DNA of 39,803 nucleotides, taken from a virus. Of this stretch, positions 3,996 through 39,803 are shown in pieces. Both the position numbers and the translations under genes were made by a program. Positions within the stretch are counted from its first letter, which is position 1. Each line of letters opens with the position of its first letter. The stretch covers positions 1 through 39,803 of the IMG/VR virus record IMGVR_UViG_3300022682_000010; one strand, 5' to 3'. Under the pieces are notes generated by a model. It did not search any database, was not told the DNA's origin, and saw nothing but the letters and a program-made list of their open reading frames with translations.

Positions 3996-4424
3996 ATGGC
4001 TGAAGCAAGAGTAGTTCAGGCAGCGTCGACGCCCGCAACATTGCAATACACCAATAATAGTGGTGCAAGCATGGCGGTTGGCGAAGTTATATCAATTAAC
4101 GCCGGGAGCGGTAAACGCATTGCCGCAGTTGTAATGGGCAATGCAATTGCAAACGGGTCAACTGGGATTGTTGCTATTCGTGGCCGGTTTTCCGTTGTTA
4201 AATCAACGTCTCAGGCATTTTCGCAGGGCGATCAGGTTTATTTTGATGCGAGTGCGAATAAAGCGGATGATGCAACAACCGCCGCGACGGTTAGTGATTT
4301 CGTTCTTGGTACTGCGGTCGCCGCTGCTGCTTCATCTGCGAGCTGGGTGACGGTTGACATTAACGAAGGTCCAAGCGCATACGCTATGGGTTCTAGCTCG
4401 TCAAGCTCTAGCTCGTCAAGCTAA
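3996..4424 (+). CDS. DUF2190-like capsid decoration protein with poly-Ser tail
   Basis: A 142-residue protein placed directly after the capsid gene. The sequence (LQYTNNSGASMAVGEVISI, ATVSDFVLGTAVAAAASSASWVTVDIN) resembles the DUF2190 group, small beta-rich proteins following the capsid gene and regarded as decoration or cement proteins. It has an AAAGGA ribosome site. The body ends near residue 132 and is followed by 10 consecutive Ser, encoded by a perfect tandem repeat of a 15-base unit using both TCN and AGC codons. A Ser-only tail is not a usual part of this family. A similar tail is found on the tail-tube protein. The tail could be flexible, surface exposed and O-glycosylated (inference). 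Confidence 0.8.
   Translation: MAEARVVQAASTPATLQYTNNSGASMAVGEVISINAGSGKRIAAVVMGNAIANGSTGIVAIRGRFSVVKSTSQAFSQGDQVYFDASANKADDATTAATVSDFVLGTAVAAAASSASWVTVDINEGPSAYAMGSSSSSSSSSS
4392..4421 (+). repeat. Two tandem 15-base units encoding poly-Ser tail
   Basis: TCTAGCTCGTCAAGC occurs twice in perfect tandem (4392-4406 and 4407-4421) directly before the TAA stop, encoding 10 Ser. The stop overlaps the next ATG by one base. Confidence 0.9.
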
Positions 4425-5418: not shown

Positions 5419-5691
5419 ATGACACGCGACGAAGTACAGGCAATGATAGACGGCCAGAAAGAGGCGTGTAAAATGGTCTATGTGATGCGCCCTGGTATTA
5501 TTGCAATAATAATTACGAGTGTGACCCTGTGCGGTTTTGCTGGTGGGTTATTTGCGTATTCTATCGGCAATGAATCGCGCATGTCAACCGTAGAGACACA
5601 AGTTAAACAAAACACAAAAAAAATTGAAAAATATGAACAGAAACAAGAGAAAATCGTCGAATTACTTGTGGAGATAAAAGAAAAATTATGA
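5419..5691 (+). CDS. Small membrane protein with coiled coil
   Basis: A 90-residue protein with a GGAG ribosome site. Residues about 25-50 form one transmembrane segment (GIIAIIITSVTLCGFAGGLF). Residues 55-90 are a heptad-like coiled coil (VETQVKQNTKKIEKYEQKQE). The layout recalls small phage membrane proteins of the XhlA/holin-accessory type but with the order reversed (membrane segment first, coil last). It is coupled by an ATGA overlap to the following signal-peptide protein, so the two may act together at the inner membrane. Its presence between neck and tail genes is unusual. Function unknown. Confidence 0.6.
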   Translation: MTRDEVQAMIDGQKEACKMVYVMRPGIIAIIITSVTLCGFAGGLFAYSIGNESRMSTVETQVKQNTKKIEKYEQKQEKIVELLVEIKEKL

Positions 5692-8003
5692 TACGTGTAT
5701 TAATGTTGGTATTTTTATATTCTTTTTTAACATACGCACAATTTGTGCCTATGTCGATTGATACGAAAAAACCGAAAAAATATATTTCTTCAGTTGACAA
5801 AATGCAGCTGAAACCTAAATATAGTGACACAAATACCAAAAACGGCATCAAATGGTCAAAGGAAATGATTATTGTCATCAAAACGGGTGATCTACCTCCG
5901 TATTATCATAATCAGGTAGTATCAATAATTGACAGCTCGACGTACAGGCAACTTCCCGACTCCCTCTCATTGTGGATGCGGACGGTTTACAGAATGGAAA
6001 CACACGAATTAAAGGATCGGGCTAAATTTAGGGAGGCAATAGATAGTAACATTGTGTGGATGGCGGACAGCACCGGAAACAATAATCGATATCTGATGGA
6101 TGATAGTTATGTGGAACTGGCTACAATAAAAAATAAATACAAAGAGAAAAATCAGCCTGTTGACATACTAAAAGCGACGAAATATAAAGCTAAAGATTAT
6201 TTGATATTAGATACTGATGTTACAGATAATGATCCTGTGGTTGATAGCAACGCAATTACCGCCGGAACGTATACCGTGGGGCCTACTGGTGATTATGCAG
6301 GGTTAGAGGCTGCCAATGCTGATGTTGGATCAGGAACGTTGACTGATACTTTGCGTTTAGTAACTAACGGCGCGTTTACAATTCCAAATACAGTAACGTT
6401 TACTTATACATCTGGCGGATTTCCCCTAATTTGGACATCAAATAAATTTCATTACGGGAATCCTGATAGTGGACATATTATTACATTTCAAAAGGAAGTT
6501 AGGGACGACCATAGCGGAATTGGTGGAATGTATGTAGAGTGGCAGAATTGTATTGGCAGCACTAATACGCAATATTTTTTCGTGCCGCAAAATAATAACC
6601 CCGGCGGTCACATGACTATTAGATGGTGTATTGCTGACGGAAACGATACGTTTAGATATTTCGTGATAACCGGTAACAGTAATGCTTCTGTGCATGCTTA
6701 TGGTAATAAAGCCTTCGAATTACAATATGGTGTTTCATTCCAAACTGGCTTGTTTTGTAGAGTTGCAAACAATCTGTTCTCTGATATATCAATTAATGGC
6801 TTTTGGCATTTAAACGCAGATTCCGCACACGTAGAAAATAATGTTTTTTATGACTGTGTAAATGATCTGGCTGGTACGAATATTGACAAATCCATATTCA
6901 GGAATAACGCCACAAATAAAACGGGGGCTTTCGGTGCCGGAGTTGAGTCCGGTACAGTAGATCAGATAACAAGCGCAGATTTTCTGAGTGTGAATATTGC
7001 CGACTCTAACGGATTTGATATCGATGCGACTAGCCAACTATATAGGGCTGGAACAGACCCCATACTAGTATCTGAAATTACTCAGGGCATAGATGGAGAC
7101 CCGTGGGAGTCCGGCGCGTATGATATCGGCCCGTATGCGGTAGCGACCACTGTGTATTCTGTTGACTCAATATCACCGGACAGCACAAATTTCGAGGGTG
7201 GATGTGACACCATCACTTTGTCAACACAAAACTCAGGATCTTCCCGCGGGTCAGGTTTTATTTTGTTTGCAGATAGTAATTATACAGATGTTGTTAGCTG
7301 GTCAGATACTGATATTAAAATTTTTAATATGACCTACGCAGATACAATCTCTGATACTATCAAATTTGTCAATAACGACGGCGACACATCAACTGGCGTA
7401 CCGTTTAAATTTATCGATGCGCGACCGGTTATTGACAGTGTAAAATCGTATACGACACAATTGGATATTGCGATAACTAGTACATATAATGATACCGTAT
7501 TTTTAGCATGTTCGACAAATTCCGAATTAGTTTTTGTGGATACCTTACCCTTGACGCCGGGTAATACCGATACCGTTACCATCACCGGGCTATGTTATGG
7601 GCAATCGATAATAATACATGCCAATAACCGATGCGGTCAGCGTCGAGATACTATAAATACGTTGTCGTATGTTGGCTGGAATCCCACATTTTTAAGGAGT
7701 TCAGCGGCAGCTACAACGATTAGTGTTCCTTTTTTGGCAAATAAAAACGACAGCTGTTTTAAATTTTATCGAGGGTCGACTATATCCAATTCCGGCACAA
7801 TAGCAAAAACTATTTCTAGTGGCGGAGATACTTCTGACATATCCATATCAACTATAAATAAGTTAGTGACTTTTTCCAATAGTGGTATTTGGTATTTAAA
7901 ATTAACGGCGGTTGATATGACTCAAAGCGACCCCACAATAATTTTAAAAGTTTACGGCGATGAAGTTGACACAACGGAGTATTTGAGGATAAATATACAA
8001 TGA
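5688..8003 (+). CDS. Secreted beta-helix / Ig-like protein inside the tail operon
   Basis: A 771-residue protein. Residues 1-17 are a signal-peptide-like stretch (MIRVLMLVFLYSFLTYA, then QFVP), with a possible cleavage after TYA. Residues about 185-480 look like a right-handed parallel beta helix: short Asn/Gly-rich rungs (ADSAHVENNVFYDCVNDL, IDKSIFRNNATNK) closing with DPWESGAYDIGPYAV, a pattern common at the end of secreted beta-helix proteins. Residues about 485-570 resemble an IPT/TIG Ig-like domain (VDSISPDSTNFEGGCDTITL), followed by further beta-sandwich repeats. Beta helices are typical of carbohydrate-binding or cleaving proteins. A Sec signal is unexpected for a virion part. It may be secreted by the infected cell, or the N-terminus may be an anchor. 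It overlaps both neighbours by ATGA. Confidence 0.6.
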   Translation: MIRVLMLVFLYSFLTYAQFVPMSIDTKKPKKYISSVDKMQLKPKYSDTNTKNGIKWSKEMIIVIKTGDLPPYYHNQVVSIIDSSTYRQLPDSLSLWMRTVYRMETHELKDRAKFREAIDSNIVWMADSTGNNNRYLMDDSYVELATIKNKYKEKNQPVDILKATKYKAKDYLILDTDVTDNDPVVDSNAITAGTYTVGPTGDYAGLEAANADVGSGTLTDTLRLVTNGAFTIPNTVTFTYTSGGFPLIWTSNKFHYGNPDSGHIITFQKEVRDDHSGIGGMYVEWQNCIGSTNTQYFFVPQNNNPGGHMTIRWCIADGNDTFRYFVITGNSNASVHAYGNKAFELQYGVSFQTGLFCRVANNLFSDISINGFWHLNADSAHVENNVFYDCVNDLAGTNIDKSIFRNNATNKTGAFGAGVESGTVDQITSADFLSVNIADSNGFDIDATSQLYRAGTDPILVSEITQGIDGDPWESGAYDIGPYAVATTVYSVDSISPDSTNFEGGCDTITLSTQNSGSSRGSGFILFADSNYTDVVSWSDTDIKIFNMTYADTISDTIKFVNNDGDTSTGVPFKFIDARPVIDSVKSYTTQLDIAITSTYNDTVFLACSTNSELVFVDTLPLTPGNTDTVTITGLCYGQSIIIHANNRCGQRRDTINTLSYVGWNPTFLRSSAAATTISVPFLANKNDSCFKFYRGSTISNSGTIAKTISSGGDTSDISISTINKLVTFSNSGIWYLKLTAVDMTQSDPTIILKVYGDEVDTTEYLRINIQ

Positions 8004-8815: not shown

Positions 8816-9787
8816 ATGGCTCAACGATTTGTAAAAAATTTAGAAGCATGTTTGTGTAAAGTTCAAACCGATAATGAGACGGAAGCGACGGGGCTTGCGG
8901 CCACTGATTTACTTGAGGTAATGCGTGATTCTTCTTTTAATTACGAACAAGAAGGCACAGAAATAATGCTCGTGTCAAACTCTTTTGACCAAGAAAAATA
9001 CGTGCCCGGTATTGCTAAAGTAAACTGGTCAATAAAATGCCCATTACGTAATTTTGGCGTAGCGGATGCAGGAGTGCCGCCAGATTTCGGGGCATTGTTA
9101 CAGGCAATGGATTTTACGGAAATAGCAAACAATAGTTATTATCAGTACGTCCCTAATTCTACGGGGGGGTCTAGCGTCACATTGTGGGGGTATTATGGAC
9201 GTGCGGGCGGGACAACCAATTTACTCAAGGGATATAACATTAAGGGCAGTGGTAAACTATCCCTTGAGGCTGGAAAAATAGGCACGCTTGAGTTTAATGG
9301 GATGGGAGCTTTTTCCGACTTTACAACAGGAACATTTCCGACCGTTAGCCGAAATAGAACATTGATCCCGGCGGTGTTAAGTGCAACCGTGACTATTAAT
9401 GGTAGTAGTTATAAATTTATCACTGCGGAAATTGATTTTGGACAAGAGTCGGATAATGACATTGATGCTTCTGAGACTTACGGTGTCGGTCAGTCAAATA
9501 TTACTGATCGTAAATTTAAATTCAATGCTAAAGTTTACGCTGATTTACAGACAACTCTCGATCCAATTGCAGCTTTACAAGGCGCGAGTGAGGGATCATT
9601 GGTTTTTAATTATGGCAGTACGCCAGAAATAAAAATCGCCAGTTCGTACTCGCAAATTACGGCTGTTGCGGCCAGTGATCAAAACGGAAAAACCACATGG
9701 GATTTATCAGGTCAGTTAAATCGGAACGATTTAAGAATATCAATACTTGGCGCTGATAGTTCAAGCTCATCGAGCTCATCGAGCTAA
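8816..9787 (+). CDS. Major tail tube protein with poly-Ser tail
   Basis: A 323-residue protein with AGGAG ribosome site. The position before the chaperone/tape-measure block, the size and the two similar beta modules (KGYNIKGSGKLSLEAGKIGT; ITDRKFKFNAKVYADLQT) fit the phage tail-tube protein families with a TTP fold. It should form stacked rings around the tape measure. The C-terminus carries 9 consecutive Ser after LGAD, encoded by TCATCGAGC units. The codon order differs from the poly-Ser tail of the decoration protein, so the two tails arose or were maintained separately. A surface-exposed tail on each tube subunit would decorate the full tail. Confidence 0.85.
   Translation: MAQRFVKNLEACLCKVQTDNETEATGLAATDLLEVMRDSSFNYEQEGTEIMLVSNSFDQEKYVPGIAKVNWSIKCPLRNFGVADAGVPPDFGALLQAMDFTEIANNSYYQYVPNSTGGSSVTLWGYYGRAGGTTNLLKGYNIKGSGKLSLEAGKIGTLEFNGMGAFSDFTTGTFPTVSRNRTLIPAVLSATVTINGSSYKFITAEIDFGQESDNDIDASETYGVGQSNITDRKFKFNAKVYADLQTTLDPIAALQGASEGSLVFNYGSTPEIKIASSYSQITAVAASDQNGKTTWDLSGQLNRNDLRISILGADSSSSSSSSS
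9767..9784 (+). repeat. Two tandem 9-base units encoding poly-Ser tail
   Basis: TCATCGAGC is repeated at 9767-9775 and 9776-9784, preceded by AGTTCAAGC, giving nine Ser before the stop. Confidence 0.9.
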
Positions 9788-10284: not shown

Positions 10285-10320
10285 ATGCGGCAGCCGTTAT
10301 CATGTATAATAGGTTGCCGC
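10275..10320 (+). promoter_or_regulatory. Programmed -1 ribosomal frameshift signal
   Basis: Slippery heptamer A AAA AAC at 10275-10281, zero frame AAA AAC, directly followed by TGA (10282-10284). After a 5-base spacer a hairpin follows: GCGGCAGCC (10287-10295) pairs along all nine positions with GGTTGCCGC (10312-10320), including one G-U pair, with a 16-base loop. Heptamer, spacer and stem agree with known -1 frameshift signals. The -1 frame from 10281 is open to 10694. Confidence 0.9.
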
Positions 10321-10694
10321 AATTTACCTGTATTCAATGTGATAAAAGGACAAAAAAAATTAATGGGTGTGAAAAGCCGTATCATAAACCAGTTTGGTAT
10401 ACTGATAGCTGTTATTTTTGTAATGGTTCTGATATTGATTGTCCACATTGTAAAGGGAGTAACAGCATTGCGGCGTATTTTTGCCCGCGTACGCTTGCGG
10501 TTGAGGTGTCTCTGTTACTCCCTTATTTTGAAGATTGGAAAATTTCAAACTATACGGTCTGGCCGTATGGCGATAAAAGAATCGATCACCCAATTAAAAC
10601 CGGATTGGCGTTTGATTTTTTACGGTCGTTATGCACCAAATATGAAAATGAGATGTCAAGACAAGCCCAACAGGAATATAAAAATAGGTTTTAA
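10281..10694 (+). CDS. Tail assembly chaperone, T-type frame (made by -1 frameshift)
   Basis: An ORF of 137 codons read after -1 slippage at 10275-10281, giving a 292-residue fusion with the upstream protein. The only early ATG (10302) lies in the loop of the frameshift hairpin and has no ribosome site, so independent initiation is unlikely. The T part contains Cys pairs (CIQC, then CYFCNGSDIDCPHC), probably a small zinc-binding module. Similar Cys-rich T extensions are seen in other phage tail chaperones, but the zinc is inferred. By analogy to lambda gpGT it recruits tail tube subunits to the tape measure. It ends two bases before the tape measure gene. Confidence 0.85.
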   Translation: MNAAAVIMYNRLPQFTCIQCDKRTKKINGCEKPYHKPVWYTDSCYFCNGSDIDCPHCKGSNSIAAYFCPRTLAVEVSLLLPYFEDWKISNYTVWPYGDKRIDHPIKTGLAFDFLRSLCTKYENEMSRQAQQEYKNRF

Positions 10695-10696
10695 TT

Positions 10697-12625
10697 ATGC
10701 CAGCTAATTTAAAAGTAATTCTTGCAGTCGCGACTAAGGGCCTTGATGGATTTGGAAAGGCAAAACAAGGCGCAGAGGGTTTAGATAAAAAAGTTTCGGG
10801 GCTATCCGCCAGAATGAGAGCAATGTCAACAGTTGCTGGTGCGGCGGCTGTTGCGGCGTTGGGAGCTTTTGCTAAACAATCTATTAGTGCGGCGATGAGT
10901 GTTGAGATATTTAGGACTCAATTAGAGAGCGTTTCCGGGAGTGCGGCGGCGGCGGATCAGGCGTTAAACGCTATTCGGGAGTTTGCTCGTACTTCGCCAC
11001 TACAAACCGAGGATGTTGTACGAGGATATGTTAGGTTACGAGCGGTCGGCATTGACCCTACAATCGAACAAATGAAAACTATTGGTGGTGTTGCCACTTT
11101 ATTTAATCGTGAATTATCGGATGTTGTAAATGGTTTTATAGGAATGGAAAAAGAGGTTTTACGTCGATTAGGTATTGAGATTGATCGTACTGGTAAAAAA
11201 GCCATCATTTCTTCTGGAAATATTCAAAAAGAAGTAAATAAGGACATGGCTTCTATGCGACAGGCCGTCGTGGAAACTTGGGGGGAGCGTTTTCCGGAGG
11301 CTATGGAGAATGCATCAAAAACAACAAGTTCAAAATTAGAAATAATGAAATCTAACGTCTGGGAGTTGGCGGCGGAGGTTGGTGGAAATTTAACTCCTGC
11401 AATAAATGTCGCCGCTGATGCGGTTGGTGGGTTAGCGGAACAGTGGAAAATATTGCTTGAAAATAAAATGGGCAAGGCTATAAAAAACGCTAATAAAACC
11501 ATAGCTAAAATGAAAAAATTTAAAGGCGAATTAAAGGAGATTCAGGATAGATTAAAAAACGGTTTTTATCCAGAGAGTGTCTCAGACGATATAAAAAAAA
11601 TGGATGCTATTTTTGGCACACACACATACACACTGGCGGAAGCAAAAGCTCGAGTAAAAGAATTACGAGAACAAATTTCAGGGCTAAATCAGGATCAACA
11701 GACTAAAACATCTAAGGGCCTAGGCTCAGGGTCATTAGGCCCGTCAAGTGAGCTCGAAGATAAGGCGGCAGCAGATAAAGCGGCGGCGGCGGCAAAAGAG
11801 AAGCAAAAGCAAATTGTGGATACTCAGTACGCACTTAACGAGGCGATGATTGAAGCTAAATATGAGGGCATAGCGGAAGAGATAGCCCTTCTCGAATTAA
11901 AATATGAAAAAGAGAAAGAGCTTTTAGGGACGAATCATCAAGCGATTGCAAATCTCACCGACACGTTTATGATTCAACGCAACGAGATGGTAAAAAAGCA
12001 CACACTTGACATGGAAAATATTCGTCTTGAGAGTCAAGAGCGTTTACGTGAAGCAAATATGCGAGACTACGAACAAGAGCAAGAGTTGACCAAACAGCGC
12101 ATACAATTGGCAAAAAGTGCCACTAGCCAGATGGTGGGGTCCCTTGCGGCATTAGTTACCGCTATCGATGATAGCAGTCGGACGGCTAAAGCAGCGGCCA
12201 TCGTGCAGGCGATCGCGGAAGCTGGCGCGGCGGCTGTTACCGCATACAAGGCCGGGATGCAATCAGGCGTTACGGTCTATGACAAATTGGGTTTAGCGTT
12301 TGGTGCGATGTCAACGGCGATACTGTCAACTAGTATAATTATCGCTAACATGAAAAAAGCGGCTCTTGGTCGCACATTTATGACTAACGGCCCTATGATT
12401 ATTGGCGATACTCTTGTTGGGGATAATCCTGGAGGACGTGAGAGAATAACAGTTGAGCCGGTCAGTAGTAGTAATGCAAATGGACCGATGAACTCAAGTG
12501 GTGGGACGGTTAATAATATTTATATAAATGACCCTATAACGGGTGAAAAAATGATGGAAAAAATGAGGAGGGACGGAACTATGCGGACGTATGCGCTAGA
12601 GCTTAGGGAGGAAATGGGGCTATGA
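10697..12625 (+). CDS. Tape measure protein
   Basis: A 642-residue protein starting with an LKVILAVATKGLDGFGKAKQ segment, typical of tape measure N-termini, followed by Ala-rich helices and TSPLQTEDVVRGYVRLRAVG, which is common in this family. Two hydrophobic regions are visible (GAAAVAALGAFA near residue 50; GAMSTAILSTSIIIANM near residue 545). The centre is long coiled helix (residues about 350-480, rich in Glu/Lys/Ala). It sets tail length: at about 0.15 nm per residue the tail would be close to 95 nm, an inference. Its stop codon overlaps the next gene by ATGA, linking it to the glycosyltransferase cassette. Confidence 0.9.
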   Translation: MPANLKVILAVATKGLDGFGKAKQGAEGLDKKVSGLSARMRAMSTVAGAAAVAALGAFAKQSISAAMSVEIFRTQLESVSGSAAAADQALNAIREFARTSPLQTEDVVRGYVRLRAVGIDPTIEQMKTIGGVATLFNRELSDVVNGFIGMEKEVLRRLGIEIDRTGKKAIISSGNIQKEVNKDMASMRQAVVETWGERFPEAMENASKTTSSKLEIMKSNVWELAAEVGGNLTPAINVAADAVGGLAEQWKILLENKMGKAIKNANKTIAKMKKFKGELKEIQDRLKNGFYPESVSDDIKKMDAIFGTHTYTLAEAKARVKELREQISGLNQDQQTKTSKGLGSGSLGPSSELEDKAAADKAAAAAKEKQKQIVDTQYALNEAMIEAKYEGIAEEIALLELKYEKEKELLGTNHQAIANLTDTFMIQRNEMVKKHTLDMENIRLESQERLREANMRDYEQEQELTKQRIQLAKSATSQMVGSLAALVTAIDDSSRTAKAAAIVQAIAEAGAAAVTAYKAGMQSGVTVYDKLGLAFGAMSTAILSTSIIIANMKKAALGRTFMTNGPMIIGDTLVGDNPGGRERITVEPVSSSNANGPMNSSGGTVNNIYINDPITGEKMMEKMRRDGTMRTYALELREEMGL

Positions 12626-13494
12626 GGTACGTTTTAATACAGCGTCAGGCTCCGGGGGATGTAATTTGTACCACATCGTTAATCCGCGATTTAAAAAAGC
12701 AATACCCCAAATGTAAAGTTATGGTAAATACAACCTGTGATGTTGATATCTTTGCCAATAACCCCAACGTGGAACTATTTGATGCGAAACCGGAAGAGGA
12801 AATTGTACTCGATTATCCAGACATCCATAATAGCAACGTGTCGGGGTTTCATTTTACTCACGCATTTTATAATACGTTTTATGACAAGACCGGCATTTAC
12901 GTTCGTCAATCTTCTGTTTACCCAGAATTATTCGTCACTGATTTAGAGCGTAAAAAAATGGCCGCTAAATTAGGTAAATACGGAATTAAAAAAAGATTTT
13001 GGATAATTAACGCAGGATATAAAGACGATTCTCCCTTAAAAGATTGGGGTTACTCTCGATATTGTCAAGTCGTTGATCGTCTCAAAGATCAAGTACAGTT
13101 TGTCCAGGTCGGGGAGGTTAACCCGACACATACGCACGAGCCAATACCGGGGTGTATTGATTTAATCGGCCGGACAACGATGAGAGAATATATTGTTATG
13201 GTATCAAAGAGTGTCGGCTCTGTCGGCCCCGTGTCAATGCACATGCACGTATCGGCGGCACTAGGGAAGCGCTGTATTGTTTTAGCGGGCGGTCGAGAGC
13301 CCTATCGGTGGGAGGCATACCCTAATCATAGCTACCTACACACCTGTGGTAAACTCGAATGCTGTAAAGAGAGCGGGTGTTGGAAGGGAAAAATACACGA
13401 GTGTTTAAATTACACTCCTGTGGGACCTAAATGTCACACAATGATTACACCAGATCAAGTAGTGCGAGAGGTTGAGGGGTATGAAAAATATTAA
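12622..13494 (+). CDS. GT9 (heptosyltransferase-like) glycosyltransferase
   Basis: A 290-residue GT-B protein of the heptosyltransferase family. The N-terminus has QAPGDVICTTSLIRDLKKQY, the family GD...LK pattern. The C-terminal half has DLIGRTTMREYIVMVSKS and VGPVSMHMHVSAALGKRCIV, corresponding to the family D-x-x-G-x-T and D-S-x-x-x-H-x-A-A-x-x-x segments, here with Val in place of the usual Asp before Ser. Several Cys lie near the end (CGKLECCKESGCW). It starts by ATGA overlap with the tape measure gene. GT9 enzymes normally transfer heptose or similar sugars to LPS core. In this position it may modify a virion protein or host LPS (inference). The nucleotide sugar is unknown. Confidence 0.8.
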   Translation: MRYVLIQRQAPGDVICTTSLIRDLKKQYPKCKVMVNTTCDVDIFANNPNVELFDAKPEEEIVLDYPDIHNSNVSGFHFTHAFYNTFYDKTGIYVRQSSVYPELFVTDLERKKMAAKLGKYGIKKRFWIINAGYKDDSPLKDWGYSRYCQVVDRLKDQVQFVQVGEVNPTHTHEPIPGCIDLIGRTTMREYIVMVSKSVGSVGPVSMHMHVSAALGKRCIVLAGGREPYRWEAYPNHSYLHTCGKLECCKESGCWKGKIHECLNYTPVGPKCHTMITPDQVVREVEGYEKY

Positions 13495-14368
13495 TCCTGT
13501 TGCTAAATTAACGCAATTCGATGAATTTAATTCGTACTTGCGTAATAATAAACTCATGCGGCCAATGTCGCCCATTTCAATGGAAATTAGTTTAACTGGA
13601 TTATGCAACGCCTCTTGTCCCTGGTGTTTTTATAAAGATGATCAGAGGGATCAGGCAAACATAAATGGAAAATATCTTATTAAATTTGTCAATAACATAC
13701 CGAGTTTGAAATCTGTCACTTTTGTTGGCGGCGGAGAGCCGACTATTCACCCAAAATTTAGGAAAATTAGCGAATCCATAGTGGTAAAAAAAGCACTGAT
13801 TACAAATGGGATTCGTATCCCTGATATGGATTACTCGTCGTTTACCTGGATCCGAGTATCTAAAACCGATCGACCATTTAATGTTGATGCATTACGGGCA
13901 TTGAGAGGCGCGGGTACATTAGGGTTGGCTGTTAATTATACGGGCACATCCAGGAGCTATGACCAATGTGTGGATGCCGCACAAATAGCGCATGAGGTCG
14001 GTGCTGACTATGTTCAAGTGCGGCCAGCATTGCAAACAAAGGGCAACTTGACTTTCATTGAAAAACCATCATTTCAGGATCCAATTATCCATGTGATGGG
14101 ATATAAATTTAACGATTGCGATAAGTATCACGGATATAAAAAATGCAGAGCGTTTCATTTTGTTCCTTTTTTGTGGCATAATGGTAATTTGTCGGTTTGT
14201 TGTTATCATAAAGATAAATACACATTAGGTAATATCTACCATCAGTCTGAATTTTATTTTCCGATAGAGGTAAATGTTTGCGATGACTGTCAGGTGTGCT
14301 GCAAGTTACATGAAATGAATAAATTTATTGATAATTGTAAATCTGTAGTAAATAAGGAATGGCCATAG
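13481..14368 (+). CDS. Radical SAM protein with SPASM-like C-terminus
   Basis: A 295-residue protein. CNASCPWC (Cys 42, 46, 49 from this start) is the CxxxCxxC motif binding the SAM [4Fe-4S] cluster. VTFVGGGEPTIHP is the GGE motif. The C-terminal part has KCRAFHF, NGNLSVCCYHKD, LGNI and CDDCQVCC, a SPASM/Twitch-like set of Cys likely to hold an additional cluster. I chose the ATG at 13481 because GAGAGG lies 9 bases upstream; a TTG at 13472 is the alternative. It overlaps the GT9 gene by 14 bases. SPASM enzymes often modify peptides or sugars. Sitting between glycosyltransferases, it could alter a sugar or the acceptor peptide, but the substrate is unknown. Confidence 0.85.
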   Translation: MKNINPVAKLTQFDEFNSYLRNNKLMRPMSPISMEISLTGLCNASCPWCFYKDDQRDQANINGKYLIKFVNNIPSLKSVTFVGGGEPTIHPKFRKISESIVVKKALITNGIRIPDMDYSSFTWIRVSKTDRPFNVDALRALRGAGTLGLAVNYTGTSRSYDQCVDAAQIAHEVGADYVQVRPALQTKGNLTFIEKPSFQDPIIHVMGYKFNDCDKYHGYKKCRAFHFVPFLWHNGNLSVCCYHKDKYTLGNIYHQSEFYFPIEVNVCDDCQVCCKLHEMNKFIDNCKSVVNKEWP

Positions 14369-14935
14369 ATGGAAATAGATATTCATATCGCTCATGACAT
14401 GGATCAGGGGCGGCTTGGTGAGACCTACAATCGATTGATGGGGCAATCGAGTACCGATTGGGTTTTGTTTATTGACTCCGATGTGTTGCTACTTCACCCT
14501 CGTTGGTTTAACATTTTTGTTAGGACGATCTATTTACACGGAGAAGGTACGGGGCTTATCACTTGTAAAACTAACCGTCTGGGATGTAAAGAGCAAATGA
14601 TTTTAGGTAATGACAATAACCATGATATTATTAAGCATACCGAACATGCCATTTCTGTGGAGCGTCAATTTAGGGGGCAGGTTGAGGATTACACCCACGG
14701 CAAACGGATGTCTGGCCACGTGATGTTAGTTAACAAATGTGCCTGGGAAAAGGTAGGGGGTTTTCCTATCGGCGGAGTTATAGGGACGGATACTAAATTT
14801 CACGGTCGCATAGAGCATGGAGGGTTTAAAGTGTTGTGTATGAAAGACCAGTACGTATATCATAGGTACCTAAGACAATGGAGAATGCAAGAATATAACG
14901 ACGGCGAATGGGCAAAAAGAAGGTGGGCAAAATGA
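14369..14935 (+). CDS. Small GT-A-fold glycosyltransferase
   Basis: A 188-residue protein with WVLFIDSDVLLLHP (D36-S-D38), the DxD metal and nucleotide-sugar site of GT-A enzymes, followed by MSGHVMLVNKCAWEKVGGFP and GTDTKFHGRIEHGGFKVLCM, the usual GT2-type acceptor-side pattern. At 188 residues it is shorter than common GT2 enzymes (about 230 or more). The N-terminus before DxD is only 35 residues, so the first nucleotide-binding strand is reduced; the enzyme may need a partner. It starts directly at the stop of the radical SAM gene and overlaps the next gene by ATGA. The donor and acceptor are unknown. Confidence 0.75.
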   Translation: MEIDIHIAHDMDQGRLGETYNRLMGQSSTDWVLFIDSDVLLLHPRWFNIFVRTIYLHGEGTGLITCKTNRLGCKEQMILGNDNNHDIIKHTEHAISVERQFRGQVEDYTHGKRMSGHVMLVNKCAWEKVGGFPIGGVIGTDTKFHGRIEHGGFKVLCMKDQYVYHRYLRQWRMQEYNDGEWAKRRWAK

Positions 14936-15876
14936 AAAATGTAATTTTTATTGCTAGTGATTATAATTATATGCAATGGACAAACGCACTCTTAAATAGT
15001 ATTGACTACCGGGGCGTAAAATCTGACGTTGTAGTTTTAAGTTATGGCGTCCCTAATTGGTACAAAAAAGAGGCAAAGAGGCTATTTAATTACAACATCG
15101 AATTTATTGAGGATCAAAATTTCGAGTCAAATATCGCATACGTCATGAATAAAAATCTCTACACTAAAAAACGACGTTTCACATATTTGCTTGACGTTTG
15201 CAAATCGTATAAAACCACATGTATGCTAGATGCGGACATGATGATAACGAGTCGTAATTTTAATAATCTTTTTGATTTGGTGACAGGGACAAACAAATTA
15301 ATAGGCTGTGAGGAATCGATTAAATGGACGTTTGATGATAAATATTTGGATAATGGAAAACCCATTTTCGACAAGTCGGTAAAGGCGTATAAATTTATGT
15401 GCTCCGTGCCTATTATTTTTAACTCTGAGGCATGGCGAGAAGTTTTTGAATACTACATCCATCTCATCGAACATGGGACGGAGTACCACCCTAAAAAAGG
15501 TTTGATCCCTCACATAGGGGATATTTTCTCGTGGAATATTTCAGTTTATAAAAATAACCGTCAGAATGATTGTGTATTGTTACCCATGCATTCAATGACG
15601 CAAGTGCATGGGACGTATGGTCATCATTTTTGTGGTTTGAAAAAAGAAAATGATTATATTTATACTAAGGATGGATGTGAGGTGTATTCGCTGCATGGCC
15701 GTCCGGGTCGGCCGGGGTGGTCTGATAGTCCTGAGGGCTGGTATAGTCGATCATTACAATCAAGTGGAATTGAGTATAATGACCTATTAAAAACCGGATG
15801 GAATAAAAGTATTGATATTGTCAACACTGAATTTGATAAACTTAACAACTATAAAATAAAATGGCATCTCAAATAA
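14932..15876 (+). CDS. Glycosyltransferase with DxD motif
   Basis: A 314-residue protein. The N-terminus MKNVIFIASDYNYMQWTNAL and the later CMLDADMM (D100-A-D102) fit a GT-A fold resembling GT8-like or other DxD transferases. The C-terminal half contains many aromatic residues and His (QVHGTYGHHFCG). I use the ATG at 14932, which overlaps the previous stop by ATGA and has AAGGTGGG upstream, rather than the ATG at 14908. It is the fourth and last gene of the overlapping cassette and overlaps the following distal tail gene by 16 bases. The DxD is clear, the exact family is not. Confidence 0.7.
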   Translation: MKNVIFIASDYNYMQWTNALLNSIDYRGVKSDVVVLSYGVPNWYKKEAKRLFNYNIEFIEDQNFESNIAYVMNKNLYTKKRRFTYLLDVCKSYKTTCMLDADMMITSRNFNNLFDLVTGTNKLIGCEESIKWTFDDKYLDNGKPIFDKSVKAYKFMCSVPIIFNSEAWREVFEYYIHLIEHGTEYHPKKGLIPHIGDIFSWNISVYKNNRQNDCVLLPMHSMTQVHGTYGHHFCGLKKENDYIYTKDGCEVYSLHGRPGRPGWSDSPEGWYSRSLQSSGIEYNDLLKTGWNKSIDIVNTEFDKLNNYKIKWHLK

Positions 15877-16703
15877 GATATAATAATTTAAGATCGGATT
15901 ATGTTTATGTAAACGCCCCTCAATGGGGTTATGACACATATATACACTTACCATTTACATATATCCGTAGGTCCGATAATAATTTTAAGGCATACGATCG
16001 AGGTCCGACGAGAGATGTTAGAATTTGTAAATGCCAACATCTATTAAACGCCGCAGACGCTAATAATTTATTAACGTTTTTAGAGGATAATAAAAAAGCA
16101 CGTGCTAATCAGGGCTATTTGTATTTGAAGGAGGGCGGTTTTACCCCATTCGGACCCGATTTAGGTGACGCGGGGCGATTTGATATTACGTACGGTCCGT
16201 TCTCGCCAAGCAAACAATTACACAATCCGTGGCTGTGGTGGACGTTAGATATGTTATTATTAATGCGTGATAAACCGACATATAATCTACCGGATATGGT
16301 TTCCGACGGTACCGTTACCATAGGTAATGTTGACGACATACGATACCCAAGGGATGGATACGACACTGAATATAAGTATGAGTTCGTATCTGGTATTTCT
16401 TGGGGTAAAAATCATTATGCGGTTGACAACGGCCAGTCAGGGGACGCATATTATTGTGAGCCCGAAATAAGCGGTACAAAAAGTAAAATCGCAGAATTAT
16501 TAAATGAGATCGTCACGAATATCCGGGCAACGGAGTTTACCTTTGACCCCTCAAATGTCAATTATCCGTTTGGGAGGTCTAATTCGAGTGGTGGTCCATA
16601 TACCGCAATTATAGGCCCCAACCCAACTATTAGAGTAAAACACGCAGGGCACGATCGGTACAGAATGAAATTAGGTATGATAATGAGGGTAGATAATGGC
16701 TAA
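15861..16703 (+). CDS. Distal tail-type structural protein
   Basis: A 280-residue protein rich in Tyr, Asn, Gly and Asp, with no enzyme motif. It follows the tape measure (apart from the inserted cassette) and precedes the large hub protein, the position of the distal tail or lambda M/L-type minor tail proteins. Segments such as YVYVNAPQWGYDTYIHLPFT and PTIRVKHAGHDRYRMKLGMI suggest beta structure. Its start lies within the last 16 bases of the glycosyltransferase gene, without a clear ribosome site, suggesting re-initiation. It overlaps the next gene by 8 bases. Assignment depends on location. Confidence 0.5.
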   Translation: MASQIRYNNLRSDYVYVNAPQWGYDTYIHLPFTYIRRSDNNFKAYDRGPTRDVRICKCQHLLNAADANNLLTFLEDNKKARANQGYLYLKEGGFTPFGPDLGDAGRFDITYGPFSPSKQLHNPWLWWTLDMLLLMRDKPTYNLPDMVSDGTVTIGNVDDIRYPRDGYDTEYKYEFVSGISWGKNHYAVDNGQSGDAYYCEPEISGTKSKIAELLNEIVTNIRATEFTFDPSNVNYPFGRSNSSGGPYTAIIGPNPTIRVKHAGHDRYRMKLGMIMRVDNG

Positions 16704-19700
16704 CATAGAGGTTTACGGAATAAAAATATTTTGTGACGGTGTTTATACTGAGAACACGGGTATTGGACTCTATACCCCTATAAAAACCACCGCAACATTG
16801 CTTGATACGGACAATGTGATAGTTAATAACATTGATAACCTCTACGAAGGTCAACGTGTTTTTTTAGATGACGGTGTGGGGAATACTGAGTGGGCTTTAA
16901 TTGATACAATTACTCGAGCGTCTAAAATAGTTTCGTTTGTAAACAATGTGAGTAATTCATACCCCATAGGATCTACGTTAACCGGTTTATCAGAGTTTAG
17001 ATTTATTGAAAACAGCTTGACCGGTATCGAATTTATTACTTGGAGCTATGGTTTATTATCGTATAATAGCATTAGCGGAATTTCAGAAAGCGCCACACTG
17101 GTGCGTGGTGGCGATTTAGCTAATTTAAATTCTTTATCTGTAAACATTATTAACGTTGATAAATGGCATAATGATATCGATACATTAGGTATAGGTTTAG
17201 GGGGATTGAAAGTAGAAATACACTCATTTGTTAAAAATAAAGATACAGATAACGTCACACAAAATTTAATATATCGAGGGGTTACTGAATTATCAAAATT
17301 TACAGAAGCAGAATTTATTTTAAATGTTGTACCTCCAAGTGATGCCAGAAATGCTAATATACTAACTCAAATCGAAGATAGTGATAATAAAGTCATCACG
17401 ATTCCCGCCTCATTTGGATCACTAATTAATAAAAAAGCTTTACTAATAAATACAAAAAACGAACAAAAAATACTAGATGTTAATCTATATAATATTGGAT
17501 CAAGAAATCTATTCCCGGTCGTTACGGTGACGAGCAACACAGAAATAGTATTAGATACTATGCAAATTGATGAGCCTTATTATGGTGAAAATTTATCTCT
17601 TTTGTCAAATGTTTTAAGTGAAATTTCAAATAAATATGATAAGCTATACGTTAAATCAATTTTTGGGACAAATGCAGGTGAGATAAGAGAAATAAATAGT
17701 TTTACATATGATTTTTTATCTACCGGTGAGTTAAATTTAACACTCACAGATCCATTCCCTGAGACTCCGGATACAAGCGGCAATGATCAAATGGTTTGTC
17801 AAATAATCGGCAGTACGCAGAGATTTAAACCAGACGTGTGGCCCATAAAAACATATTTAGATTCAACAGGTGCGGCCACCCTTGGCGCATTAACTGATTT
17901 TTACATATATGATAAGAAATATAAAACGATATCTAATTATGCGTTTAAAAAACAGGGCGATGGGTCAATGCAGATCTCCTCACAATTGCAGGGGGATAAT
18001 TTTAATAATATCGAGGGTTATGTAATCGATAATAATAATATGGTGGTTGGGCCGTGGATTGATAAATTCCCCGATGAGTTTGCTGATTATTTTTTGTCAG
18101 GCTATTCTAATGTCACAGCATATCCGAATGGATGGTTTTTTACCTCTAATGATTCAGATTCATTTGATGATTTTTCGATATTGGATAATACCGCTATAGG
18201 AAATACAGAGGACTTGACAGACAATAATCGTGATACGGGGATCCAGTATGATTTAGAGGGCGAGGTTCGTGTAGATAATGGCAACGTGCTTATACAATCT
18301 TTTAGAATATCATTAAAAGCATTGGATAATAATTTTAATTTACAAAAAGCGTATCTGGGAATTAAATTCAAATCTACTATCACTAATTCTGGATTTTCTG
18401 AATTTTCTTTTTCTGTTATGACAAAAAAATGGTTTAGCAACACAGTTAATTATGTTTTGGAGGAAGCGGCAAAATTTGAAAACATAGGAATCCTAGGAAG
18501 CATTGTGACCTTAAACGTTGAAAATTTACCAAAACAATATTACGAAAAAGGAACAACACCGTCAAATAGCGAAAAATTTTATATTGAGAATAATGAGACT
18601 GTTGATGGTTCCGCTATATTTGAAAATAATTTAACAGGATACACGCTATTTGATCTAGGTGTTTCAAATGTTGATGCTTACAATACCATTTCTGAGATAG
18701 TTTTTTTAGTCTGTTTCAGAAATAAAGATTCAAGTCTTAATTTACCGGCATATCCCTTTGCAATAGAGAATAAGCTATATGAGACTTGTATTATTTATGA
18801 GACTGGTTCTCAGGATATTTCTGATGAAGTGTACACCAATATGACCGGTCGCATTTTTGATGACACATGGGGCGGGAGGGTGTCAGCGAATAATCCCATA
18901 CTACTACCCCGGCATATTATGGAACATTTTTGTAGATTACAAAATTTTAGTGAGGAGTTAGAGACTGATAAAAATGCAGGTAAAGAATATAGTGATGAAG
19001 CCCTGATCAACACTGGGTCAGACCAAGGAGGGTTTTCTCATCCCGACATATTGGCATTAGACTCATATTCCCCAGCTTTTCAAATCATAAACTTTAGAGA
19101 TGGTTGGGTGACAGAGCTAAAAAAGGAGTGGTGTAAAACATATTTTTGTACATCCTACGTTGACAAAAACGGAAAAGAATGTATATCATATTTACTAAAT
19201 AGTCAAGCGGAAATTTCTGACGAGATAACGATTGACGATATATTATTCCCAGAAAATCAGGGGCCGATTATCTACCCCGCTGTCAGAAATATAACCGCAC
19301 AGCCGTTCGTACGTTATAATTATGATCCGGGCAGCACGTCTTTTCTGGGATTGATTGAAATTACAAACGTCATTAAGGGGAGTTATGCGTCCGGTGATGT
19401 TATTGGTGATCTATCCGAATCGGAAGCAGAGGCAATTTACAATCGTTGTTATAATGAAATATGGAAAAAATATCACGTCGTAAATAAACCTCCTGCTGAG
19501 GTTACCGACAGGTATATGATTTCAAACAAAAGGGATGCTTTGGATTATTTAAATAATATGGTCACCTGGATGACTCGTAAACGAATAGAGATACCCATAC
19601 CATATAATTTTGATGGCGGTAGCGGCACTTTATCTAAATTTTGGCACATTGGTAGACACATAAAATTAACTTTACCTCACGAGACCAATAGTGTGACAAT

Positions 19701-21950: not shown

Positions 21951-22625
21951 ATGAAAATAAAAATGGTACAAATCGGGACAAAAATACCAGAAAATCTCGA
22001 ACAGCATATTGCGTATAATAGACGTTATGCGGACCGACACAAAATGACCTATGAGTATATTGAGATACAAAATGCGGGACGACACAAATACGTTAGTGCG
22101 TACTCTGATTTTTTGAGAGTACAGATATTATCAAAAAACCCCAATACGTTATTCCTGTGCTGGGATGCCATTTTAATTGACAACGAAATTGATTTTTCTT
22201 TGCCGTTCCGCGCACGGGATACTATTATATTTAATGGCGATGATACTAGGACGTACGAGAATGCTTTAGAATACTACGACAATTATAAAAAATCCCACCC
22301 ATTATGGCGGTTAGAGCGTCACAGGGTGTGGAAAATACTACAGCAACGCGCAAAATGGCGTAAATATAACAAACTAAATAGATATCAATACCTACACAAC
22401 AAATCAGTGGATTGGAGTAAAATTAATGGACCGACCTCAAACAAAACAAATATCAACGATGAGCACGGAAGAAATAAAAAATCTACTAATCAACGAGTTG
22501 CGGAGAAAAAATCTCCTACTAACGGAGACAAATCAAAATCAAATAAACATCCTAAACCTCGAAAAAAATCTAGCAGAGCGAGAATTAAAACCAAAACCAA
22601 AACCTCTAGCAAGAAAGACAAATAA
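21951..22625 (+). CDS. GT32-like glycosyltransferase-type protein with run-on basic tail
   Basis: A 224-residue ORF. Residues 1-100 resemble the N-terminal part of GT32-like sugar transferases: MVQIGTKIPENL, YADRHKMTYEYIE, AYSDFLRVQIL, NTLFLCWDAILIDNEI. The usual DxD is represented only by W71-D72, so activity is doubtful. Residues 155-224 are Lys/Ser/Thr/Asn-rich and coincide with another, better ORF in a different frame (22426-22632), so this tail is probably a by-product of read-on, or the original stop was lost. Promoter and ribosome site are weak (GGA, 12 bases before ATG). It may be a decayed or shortened enzyme. Confidence 0.5.
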   Translation: MKIKMVQIGTKIPENLEQHIAYNRRYADRHKMTYEYIEIQNAGRHKYVSAYSDFLRVQILSKNPNTLFLCWDAILIDNEIDFSLPFRARDTIIFNGDDTRTYENALEYYDNYKKSHPLWRLERHRVWKILQQRAKWRKYNKLNRYQYLHNKSVDWSKINGPTSNKTNINDEHGRNKKSTNQRVAEKKSPTNGDKSKSNKHPKPRKKSSRARIKTKTKTSSKKDK

Positions 22626-32256: not shown

Positions 32257-32883
32257 ATGAGCAAATTTATGAAAACAATACTTCACCTGTGCGCTGATAT
32301 AGGCAGTGATAGCCGTTATTATCAATTAGATGATAACTACAATGTTATTTTGGTCGGTCAGGACGTAGGCGTAGAAAATTACAATCCGCCTAACGATGTG
32401 CGGGGTGTGATTGCAAACCCCGTATGTACCGAGTTCTCGACCGCCAGAGGGTTTAATTATGTCGGAAATATTGATAGTGGTATGTATTTAGTAAATCATT
32501 GTACGCGGATAATACATGAGGCCGCCCCTAAATGGTGGGTAATCGAAAACCCAGCAAACGGTAGGTTATGTGAGGTATTAGGGGCACCCAAACACACATA
32601 TCAACCATGGCAATACGGATCTCCGTGGACAAAAAAAACTGCATTATGGGGTAACTTTATAATGCCAGAGCCAATTTATAACGATTGGGAGGGTGTGCCA
32701 AAAAATCATAAATTATATGTACGTCCTGGTCGTAAAAAACCATGCTTAGCGGTTTTACACAAATCAGCATTACAATATATGCCGGAATATAAATGGGCGA
32801 TTGACAAAATAAAAACCGATAGTGATTTACGATCAATCTGCTCTGATGGATTTGCAAAGAAATTTTATGAGGCGAACAGATAA
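32257..32883 (+). CDS. C5-cytosine methyltransferase-like protein, divergent
   Basis: A 208-residue protein with features of C5 methyltransferases: NPVCTEFS (C57, motif IV, where the usual Pro before Cys is Val), WWVIENPANG (E97, motif VI) and TKKTALWGNF (motif VIII-like). The N-terminal SAM site is altered: ILHLCADIGSDS takes the place of the usual FxGxG. No target recognition domain is visible, and it is far shorter than M.HhaI-type enzymes (about 330). It may modify phage cytosines to evade host restriction, or use the catalytic Cys in another base reaction. Alternative start at 32269 (MKTILHLC). Confidence 0.65.
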   Translation: MSKFMKTILHLCADIGSDSRYYQLDDNYNVILVGQDVGVENYNPPNDVRGVIANPVCTEFSTARGFNYVGNIDSGMYLVNHCTRIIHEAAPKWWVIENPANGRLCEVLGAPKHTYQPWQYGSPWTKKTALWGNFIMPEPIYNDWEGVPKNHKLYVRPGRKKPCLAVLHKSALQYMPEYKWAIDKIKTDSDLRSICSDGFAKKFYEANR

Positions 32884-33124: not shown

Positions 33125-33949
33125 ATGAAAAAATGTTGTCATTGTAAAGCAATAAAACCACTGTCAGATTTTTTTAAGTCGCAAAAAACTGCCGACAAAA
33201 GATGGCATTGGTGTAAGGATTGCGAACTTTTGGCAAGAAATCAAAGCGACGATATGAAATATTGTTTGTCTTTTTCCGGCGGGAAAGATTCTACGGCGTT
33301 GCTTATTTTGCTTCTTGAAAAGAAAATGCCGCTCGATAAAATTGTATACTTCGATTGTGAAGATTTTGAGTTTCCAGAAATGCGCGGTCATATCGAAAAA
33401 GTCAAAGCGGTTCTCGGGGTAGAAATAGAAGAGTGCCACACCGTAAAGCCCTTTATGCAATACATAAAAGAAATCGGGTGGGCTTCTCCACGGTTGCGCT
33501 GGTGTACAAATGAAAAAATAAATAGCATCCGTCGTAAACTTCGCTTTTATCGCCCATGCACGCAGTACATTGGATATGCAGCAGATGAAACTATGCGAAT
33601 AAACAGAGCGCACAAAAAAAACAAAGCAAGAAAACGTGATTACTTTTTAAAATATTCTTTCCCACTTGTTGAGTGGGGTATAACAGAAAAAAAAGCGTTA
33701 GAAATTTGTTACGCTCACGGTTTTGATTTTGGTGGATTATATGAGCATTGGAATAGGGTGTCGTGTTGGTGTTGTCCATTGCAAGGCAATAAAGATTTAG
33801 AAAAACTTAGTAAATTACGTCCTGAGTTATACCAAAAACTTATTGACATGGATAAGCTTGCACCTGACAATTATAAATTCGGTTTGTGGAAAAAAGAAAA
33901 ACGGCACGTCCTGTGCCAAGAAATCGGGCCGAAAAAAAAGGATGAATAA
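33125..33949 (+). CDS. PP-loop / PAPS reductase-like protein with N-terminal zinc finger
   Basis: A 274-residue protein. Residues 4-33 form a zinc-finger-like module (CCHCK ... WHWCKDC). SFSGGKDST (residues 49-57) is the PP-loop that binds and adenylates substrates in PAPS reductase and related ATP pyrophosphatases. Further family features are YFDCEDFEFPEMRGHIEK, RLRWCTNEKI and CWCCPLQG. PAPS-reductase-like proteins are common in phages with unknown purpose; relatives include DndC of DNA phosphorothioation. No DndB/D/E or other partner is seen here. It has 67 non-coding bases before it and 83 after it, unlike the tight operon around, so it may be a separately acquired gene. Confidence 0.8.
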   Translation: MKKCCHCKAIKPLSDFFKSQKTADKRWHWCKDCELLARNQSDDMKYCLSFSGGKDSTALLILLLEKKMPLDKIVYFDCEDFEFPEMRGHIEKVKAVLGVEIEECHTVKPFMQYIKEIGWASPRLRWCTNEKINSIRRKLRFYRPCTQYIGYAADETMRINRAHKKNKARKRDYFLKYSFPLVEWGITEKKALEICYAHGFDFGGLYEHWNRVSCWCCPLQGNKDLEKLSKLRPELYQKLIDMDKLAPDNYKFGLWKKEKRHVLCQEIGPKKKDE

Positions 33950-39650: not shown

Positions 39651-39791
39651 TGGTTAAAATTATAAAATAACGGAAGATTTAATTAAATTGATAAAGGATC
39701 ATTATGAGGCAATACAAGCGTTATATTTATGTTAAGGGATGGTCCTAAAACTATGTTATGCATACGGTGTTCTCTCTGAAAGATAAGAGGC

Positions 39792-39803
39792 GGGGGGGGG
39801 GGG
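39792..39803. other. Terminal poly-G run, likely sequencing artefact
   Basis: The contig ends with 12 G. Two-colour sequencing reads no signal as G, so such an end is usually an artefact. The true right end is unproven. Confidence 0.7.

Follow-up and report, generated by a model that had tools for sequence, protein, structure and literature searches.

The IMG/VR virus record IMGVR_UViG_3300022682_000010 was analyzed over its entire 39,803 bases (hereafter the window). Its late operon contains a cassette of four genes for putative glycan-building enzymes and two virion protein genes whose products end in pure runs of serine. The operon is ordered as portal, capsid-protease fusion, decoration protein, neck genes, tail tube, tape measure, the four-gene cassette and distal tail genes. 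The cassette, the tape measure and first distal tail genes beside it, and the decoration and tail tube genes lie on the plus strand. In the cassette, a GT9-family glycosyltransferase (12622–13494; PF01075, E 5.6e-7) is followed by a radical SAM enzyme (13472–14368; PF04055, E 1.2e-6), a small GT2-like transferase of 188 residues with a DSD motif (14369–14935; phrog_26101, E 1e-14) and a transferase with a DAD motif and a predicted GT8 fold (14932–15876; AlphaFold2 model and HMM match to GlyE). The tape measure gene (10697–12625; phrog_973, E 5e-14) lies directly 5' of the GT9 gene, and a distal tail gene (15861–16703) follows the cassette; a homolog of the latter, 27% identical, stands directly after the tape measure gene in the related phage contig G002. 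The position of the four genes between tape measure and distal tail gene is thus as the original prediction, made from the sequence by a model, had placed them.

That prediction also described the genes as coupled through ATGA overlaps. Such an overlap is present between the tape measure and GT9 genes (12622–12625) and, if the GT8 gene begins at an internal ATG, between the GT2 and GT8 genes (14932–14935). The other junctions are different: the GT9 and radical SAM genes overlap by 14–23 nucleotides, the radical SAM and GT2 genes abut with zero overlap (TAGATG), and the GT8 gene overlaps the distal tail gene by 16 nucleotides. The radical SAM gene probably starts at the ATG at 13481. The GT8 reading frame is readable from 14908, and the ATG at 14932 is where its homologs start. 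None of the four proteins has a membrane-like stretch.

The head decoration protein (3996–4424; phrog_122, E 1.9e-9) ends in ten serines, at approximately 4392–4421, encoded by TCT AGC TCG TCA AGC read twice. A second protein (8816–9787) ends in nine serines, at approximately 9758–9784, encoded by mixed TCN and AGY codons. This mixture suggests that conservation acts on the serine run of the protein and not on a DNA repeat of one codon. We assign the second protein as the major tail tube on the basis of its place 5' of the tape measure gene and of a model of modest confidence (pLDDT 65), which matches the tail tubes of P74-26 (E 7e-9) and T5 (E 1e-7). The two tags, overlooked in the original prediction, are the probable glycan acceptors in the scheme proposed below.

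Enzymes of the cassette

The window GT9 protein has 290 residues and is a member of PF01075 by profile score (29.6 bits, cut-off 22). It shares with its phage homologs a C-terminal CC-x4-CW...C...C motif with five invariant cysteines. A profile of this subfamily recovered 63 viral loci versus six loci in 84,980 bacterial and archaeal genomes, and one of these six is on a contig equal in size and match to an IMG/VR record. The subfamily is therefore almost confined to viral contigs. It was found in no cultured phage searched: the window GT9, three diverse GT9 queries and the window GT8 gave zero matches in 50,697 deposited phage records. In a profile search of the PDB with GT9, only WaaF scored meaningfully (E 4e-4) and TibC was not recovered. 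Assignment to the BAHT autotransporter heptosyltransferases (TIGR04414) was rejected, as only two of the 12 phage GT9 proteins scored matched that model, and weakly (best E 0.011), the window protein not among them.

The GT8 protein (322 residues) contains MLDADMM and matches no Pfam family. An AlphaFold2 model built from 38 homologs (pLDDT 90) matches glycogenin (Z 18.8), GlyE (Z 18) and LgtC (Z 17) over 220–241 residues, and D108 and D110 are invariant in the 38 homologs. We are confident in the GT8 fold predicted by this model, that is, a GT-A fold of the glycogenin, LgtC and GlyE type with a DxD motif. When a sequence profile of the family was searched against the PDB, GlyE ranked first (E 3e-8). 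The likeness to GlyE is a hint as to the acceptor, not proof of it. The GT2-like protein contains FIDSDVLLL, and its homologs in four contigs of the same virion type (G002, G009, G010 and G011) are of similar length, with 172–207 residues in all five; since it is equally short in all of them, it is not a broken gene.

The radical SAM protein scores 29.3 bits against PF04055, 0.2 bit below the Pfam cut-off of 29.5, and carries CNASCPWC, with the CxxxCxxC of the family in its core, followed by a Cys-rich C-terminus. Cysteines 45, 49 and 52, as well as 225, 243, 273 and 277, are invariant in five phage radical SAM proteins. The SPASM-like cysteines noted from the sequence alone amount to a resemblance: they form an invariant C-terminal pattern similar to that of twitch or SPASM domains, but matches of the window protein to radical SAM families are confined to the core domain; the SPASM model TIGR04085 matches only the homolog in the podovirus MW202801, and weakly. 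A search for the window protein in phages gave only two distant matches. The gene is an optional, putative tailoring gene, absent from G002 and most other cassettes. The radical SAM protein was considered as the key serine-acting enzyme, and this candidate was set aside because G002 keeps its serine tags with no recognized radical SAM gene. The original emphasis on GT9 with radical SAM as a combination therefore holds for GT9, which forms a core with GT8, and not for radical SAM.

Recurrence of the cassette and of serine tags

Relatives of the same virion type were identified with a capsid-protease search (G002, G009 and G010) and a GT8 search, which added G011. Their major capsid proteins are 37–44% identical to that of the window. 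A near-identical contig bears all four cassette genes, and relatives at 36–44% identity keep GT9, GT2 and GT8, which places the cassette well above chance. GT9, small GT2 and GT8 genes are found in the late operon of all five phages of this virion type that are long enough to test, and in the relatives the decoration and tail tube proteins have poly-Ser at the aligned C-terminal place, ranging from nine to more than 40 residues. The location between tape measure and tail genes is a feature of the window; in the relatives the cassette lies downstream of the large distal tail gene.

The interior of the cassette varies. Radical SAM genes are found there in the window, G009 and G010, an FkbM methyltransferase and a polysaccharide deacetylase in G002, and LicD, a B12-radical SAM protein and UDP-galactopyranose mutase in G011. 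Other cassettes contain UDP-GlcNAc 2-epimerase, a GDP-mannose-dehydratase-type epimerase or UDP-glucose dehydrogenase. These interior enzymes serve glycan and sugar-donor synthesis. The exact four-gene order was sought in other phage contigs and did not recur, and we reject it as a unit; the part that is conserved consists of GT9 and GT8, joined by the small GT2 in the virion type of the window.

Two further observations concern tagged proteins of this virion type. G010 has three tandem decoration genes (L053, 10209–11772), of which two encode a poly-Ser tail and the third does not, so that what the tag does could be compared within one phage. At locus L094, on a fragment, tags are present on the tail tube and on two decoration proteins, and a fourth open reading frame 3' of the tail tube gene (15673–16842) also ends in a long serine run.

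For a broader survey, contigs were fetched by the GT9 profile alone, giving the 63 viral loci in 36 locus clusters, and were inspected within a 10 kb radius. As controls we used 71 loci (22 clusters) fetched by head protease irrespective of glycosyltransferases, with the same mean GC content and excluding the virion type of the window. An open reading frame with a C-terminal serine tag was detected within 10 kb in 17 of the 36 GT9 clusters versus none of the 71 control loci (Fisher test on 36 versus 22 clusters, 5.6e-5), and any run of at least seven serines in 22 of 36 versus none of 71. In G009 and G019 the tagged reading frame lies beyond 10 kb of GT9. Tagged reading frames share the strand of GT9 in 36 of 39 cases, and in many cases the gene with the poly-Ser run immediately precedes GT9. 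The tagged proteins that were identified belong to unrelated virion types and include head closure, head or virion structural and minor tail proteins. In the GT9 tree, nearly all GT8-bearing cassettes fall into one clade (support 97/99); GT8 is present in nearly all of its 23 rows and poly-Ser in 20 of them. For a test of whether GT8 and poly-Ser were gained together independently, this tree offers only two independent pairs, which gives no power.

Searching with poly-Ser codons alone returned 12 stretches. One is the sister contig of the window and another is a new long contig, G087, which has both GT9 (6e-111) and GT8 (3e-43); the remaining stretches are mostly fragments in which GT9 and GT8 were not detected. 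A kit linked to serine tags recurs in many uncultured phages. At three loci (L205, L206 and L214, on G027, G015 and G026), giant open reading frames of about 3,000–3,700 residues with an SSSTST-type C-terminal tag lie directly 5' of GT9; the one at L205 has 39 internal serine runs.

Proposed glycosylation of virion proteins

The location of the cassette beside poly-Ser structural proteins in several unrelated phage lineages, which the original prediction had named as supporting evidence, makes modification of the virion, already favored there, the best-supported reading. We think it likely that the cassette encodes late-expressed enzymes that O-glycosylate Ser-tagged proteins of the phage's own virion. 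What the analysis shows directly is the genes with their protein families, the GT8 fold, the tags with their conservation, and the genomic linkage. The sugar-tailoring and nucleotide-sugar genes in the cassette interiors, the closeness of GT8 to GlyE and the lack of membrane-like stretches in the four proteins also favor this reading. In the order of steps that we infer, GT9 would put the first sugar on serine, a role proposed for it as the most widespread and most conserved member, and GT2 and GT8 would extend the chain. The radical SAM enzyme would probably modify a sugar of the glycan, its slot being filled in related phages by methyltransferases, a deacetylase, LicD or nucleotide-sugar enzymes. 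Tags and glycans may be exposed on the outer surfaces of head and tail, and shielding, adhesion or stability are candidate benefits. A wider proposal, to which we give about even chances, is that of a widespread system, so far seen almost only in uncultured phages, where non-homologous virion proteins share a C-terminal poly-Ser tag and where GT9 with its metal-finger-like Cys motif, GT8 and exchangeable tailoring enzymes build a glycan coat on the tags. If so, glycan-coated virions would be a modular trait across unrelated uncultured phages rather than a peculiarity of mycobacteriophages, and one readable from sequence as a simple tag and a GT9/GT8 pair. Acceptors and enzymes would then be named together and testable by co-expressing tag and cassette, and poly-Ser could prove useful as a portable tag for making glycoproteins in bacteria.

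Several points weigh against virion glycosylation. The tag criterion of the survey was set post hoc, after the first examples; a looser serine pattern occurs in three of the 71 controls, which were matched for head protease and mean GC content and not for host. Within 10 kb, 19 of the 36 GT9 clusters (some of them fragments) show no C-terminal tag, and G012 has both glycosyltransferases and no such tag. Conversely, several poly-Ser-tagged contigs of 5–38 kb, mostly fragments, have no detected GT9 or GT8. Since GT8 enzymes have many acceptors, and the nearest structures to the window protein include enzymes with other acceptors, the match to GlyE is not acceptor-specific. Lastly, MW202801, described below, has a related radical SAM gene in a similar setting and shows neither a GT9/GT8 homolog nor poly-Ser tags.

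One different explanation is that poly-Ser arises by repeat slippage or serves as flexible linkers in phages of certain hosts, so that it would accompany the cassette only through a common host or ecology. Tandem codon repeats within the tags, freely varying tract lengths, the lack of host matching in the controls and the poly-Ser contigs with no detected cassette would all fit this explanation. It is nevertheless rather unlikely, given that proteins without homology to one another are tagged across several lineages of GT9 and mostly share its strand, that all six serine codons are mixed, which indicates selection on the protein, and that no control locus has a tag. Another possibility is that the cassette alters host surface glycans (lipopolysaccharide or O-antigen) to exclude superinfecting phages or to bring about lysogenic conversion, the tags being unrelated. 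GT9 is by origin a lipopolysaccharide heptosyltransferase family, lipopolysaccharide loci often contain GT8 and GT2 enzymes, and a cyanophage with a related radical SAM protein bears heptose genes. However, the cassette has no flippase, lipid-carrier enzyme or membrane-like stretch, it is located in the tail operon and not in an early or lysogenic region, and hardly any bacterial genomes contain its GT9 subfamily. Such a role would also leave the tight linkage with poly-Ser unexplained, and we regard it as unlikely.

Modified DNA bases are frequent substrates of phage glycosyltransferases, and a DNA methyltransferase and a PAPS-reductase-like protein are also encoded in the window, which raises the question of whether the enzymes glycosylate bases of the phage DNA. 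No base hydroxymethylase or base-activating enzyme was recognized in or near the cassette, the genes are placed in the late operon, and their partners are sugar-tailoring enzymes. To our knowledge, GT9 and GT8 are not among the known DNA glucosyltransferase families. Base glycosylation is therefore highly improbable.

Glycosylation of tagged virion proteins would have partial parallels in known systems. As described in PMC12619734, citing Freeman et al. 2023, phage-encoded transferases of mycobacteriophages place glycans on the C-terminal ends of the capsid and tail tube subunits. The window differs from that system in having pure poly-Ser tags as candidate acceptors, and in having one on the decoration protein and not on the capsid protein itself; its GT9/GT8 pair, moreover, matches none of the deposited phage records.

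Serine-directed O-glycosylation of surface proteins is already known in bacteria, one serine-modifying enzyme being the autotransporter heptosyltransferase TibC, whose C-lobe contains an iron finger of four cysteines (Cys-339, 342, 358 and 370; PMC4358343). The phage GT9 proteins resemble TibC and AAH as GT9-like enzymes with a conserved Cys cluster towards the C-terminus, but the Cys spacing differs and the N-terminal beta-barrel of TibC is not evident in the window protein. This analogy suggests a working principle only, not family membership.

In the Gram-positive PsrP/GlyE adhesin system, cytoplasmic transferases are encoded beside Ser-rich surface proteins, and GlyE of this pathway is the closest PDB entry to the window GT8 by sequence. 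In contrast to that system, the proposed first transferase here is a GT9 and the putative acceptors are virion proteins, not exported adhesins. No GtfA/GtfB initiator or accessory Sec export gene is among the annotated cassette genes, no dedicated search having been made.

The podovirus MW202801 (Manatee Spring) has a related radical SAM gene between its capsid and tail genes, in a cassette (L004, 19640–24303) of radical SAM, glycosyltransferase, PhyH, methyltransferase, NodB and glycosyltransferase genes. Our literature searches, mainly of openly readable papers, turned up no account of virion proteins that combine poly-Ser tags with a GT9/GT8 kit. Virion glycosylation in mycobacteriophages and serine O-glycosylation in bacteria are known, and the poly-Ser tags with their GT9/GT8 kit appear to be new.

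Other features of the window

No terminase gene was recognized in the window, so the record may be cut beside the portal gene. The terminal run of G at 39791–39803 is probably a sequencing artifact. The slot between tail tube and tape measure genes is the usual site of tail assembly chaperones; in the window it contains a small conserved protein with several CxxC pairs (10302–10694), also found in relatives (L016, 1–336; G009; G010). A 771-residue protein in the structural operon (5688–8003) has a signal-peptide-like start, unusual for a virion gene.

The PAPS-reductase-like protein (33125–33949; PF01507, E 2e-12) has a Cys-rich, endonuclease-VII-like N-terminal stretch and is encoded near the DNA methyltransferase-like gene (32257–32883), with which it might form a DNA or sulfur modification pair. 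A short open reading frame after the tail fiber gene (21951–22625) matches no Pfam family; its N-terminal half appears GT32-like by eye (YSDFLR...WDAI) and its C-terminus is rich in lysine and serine.

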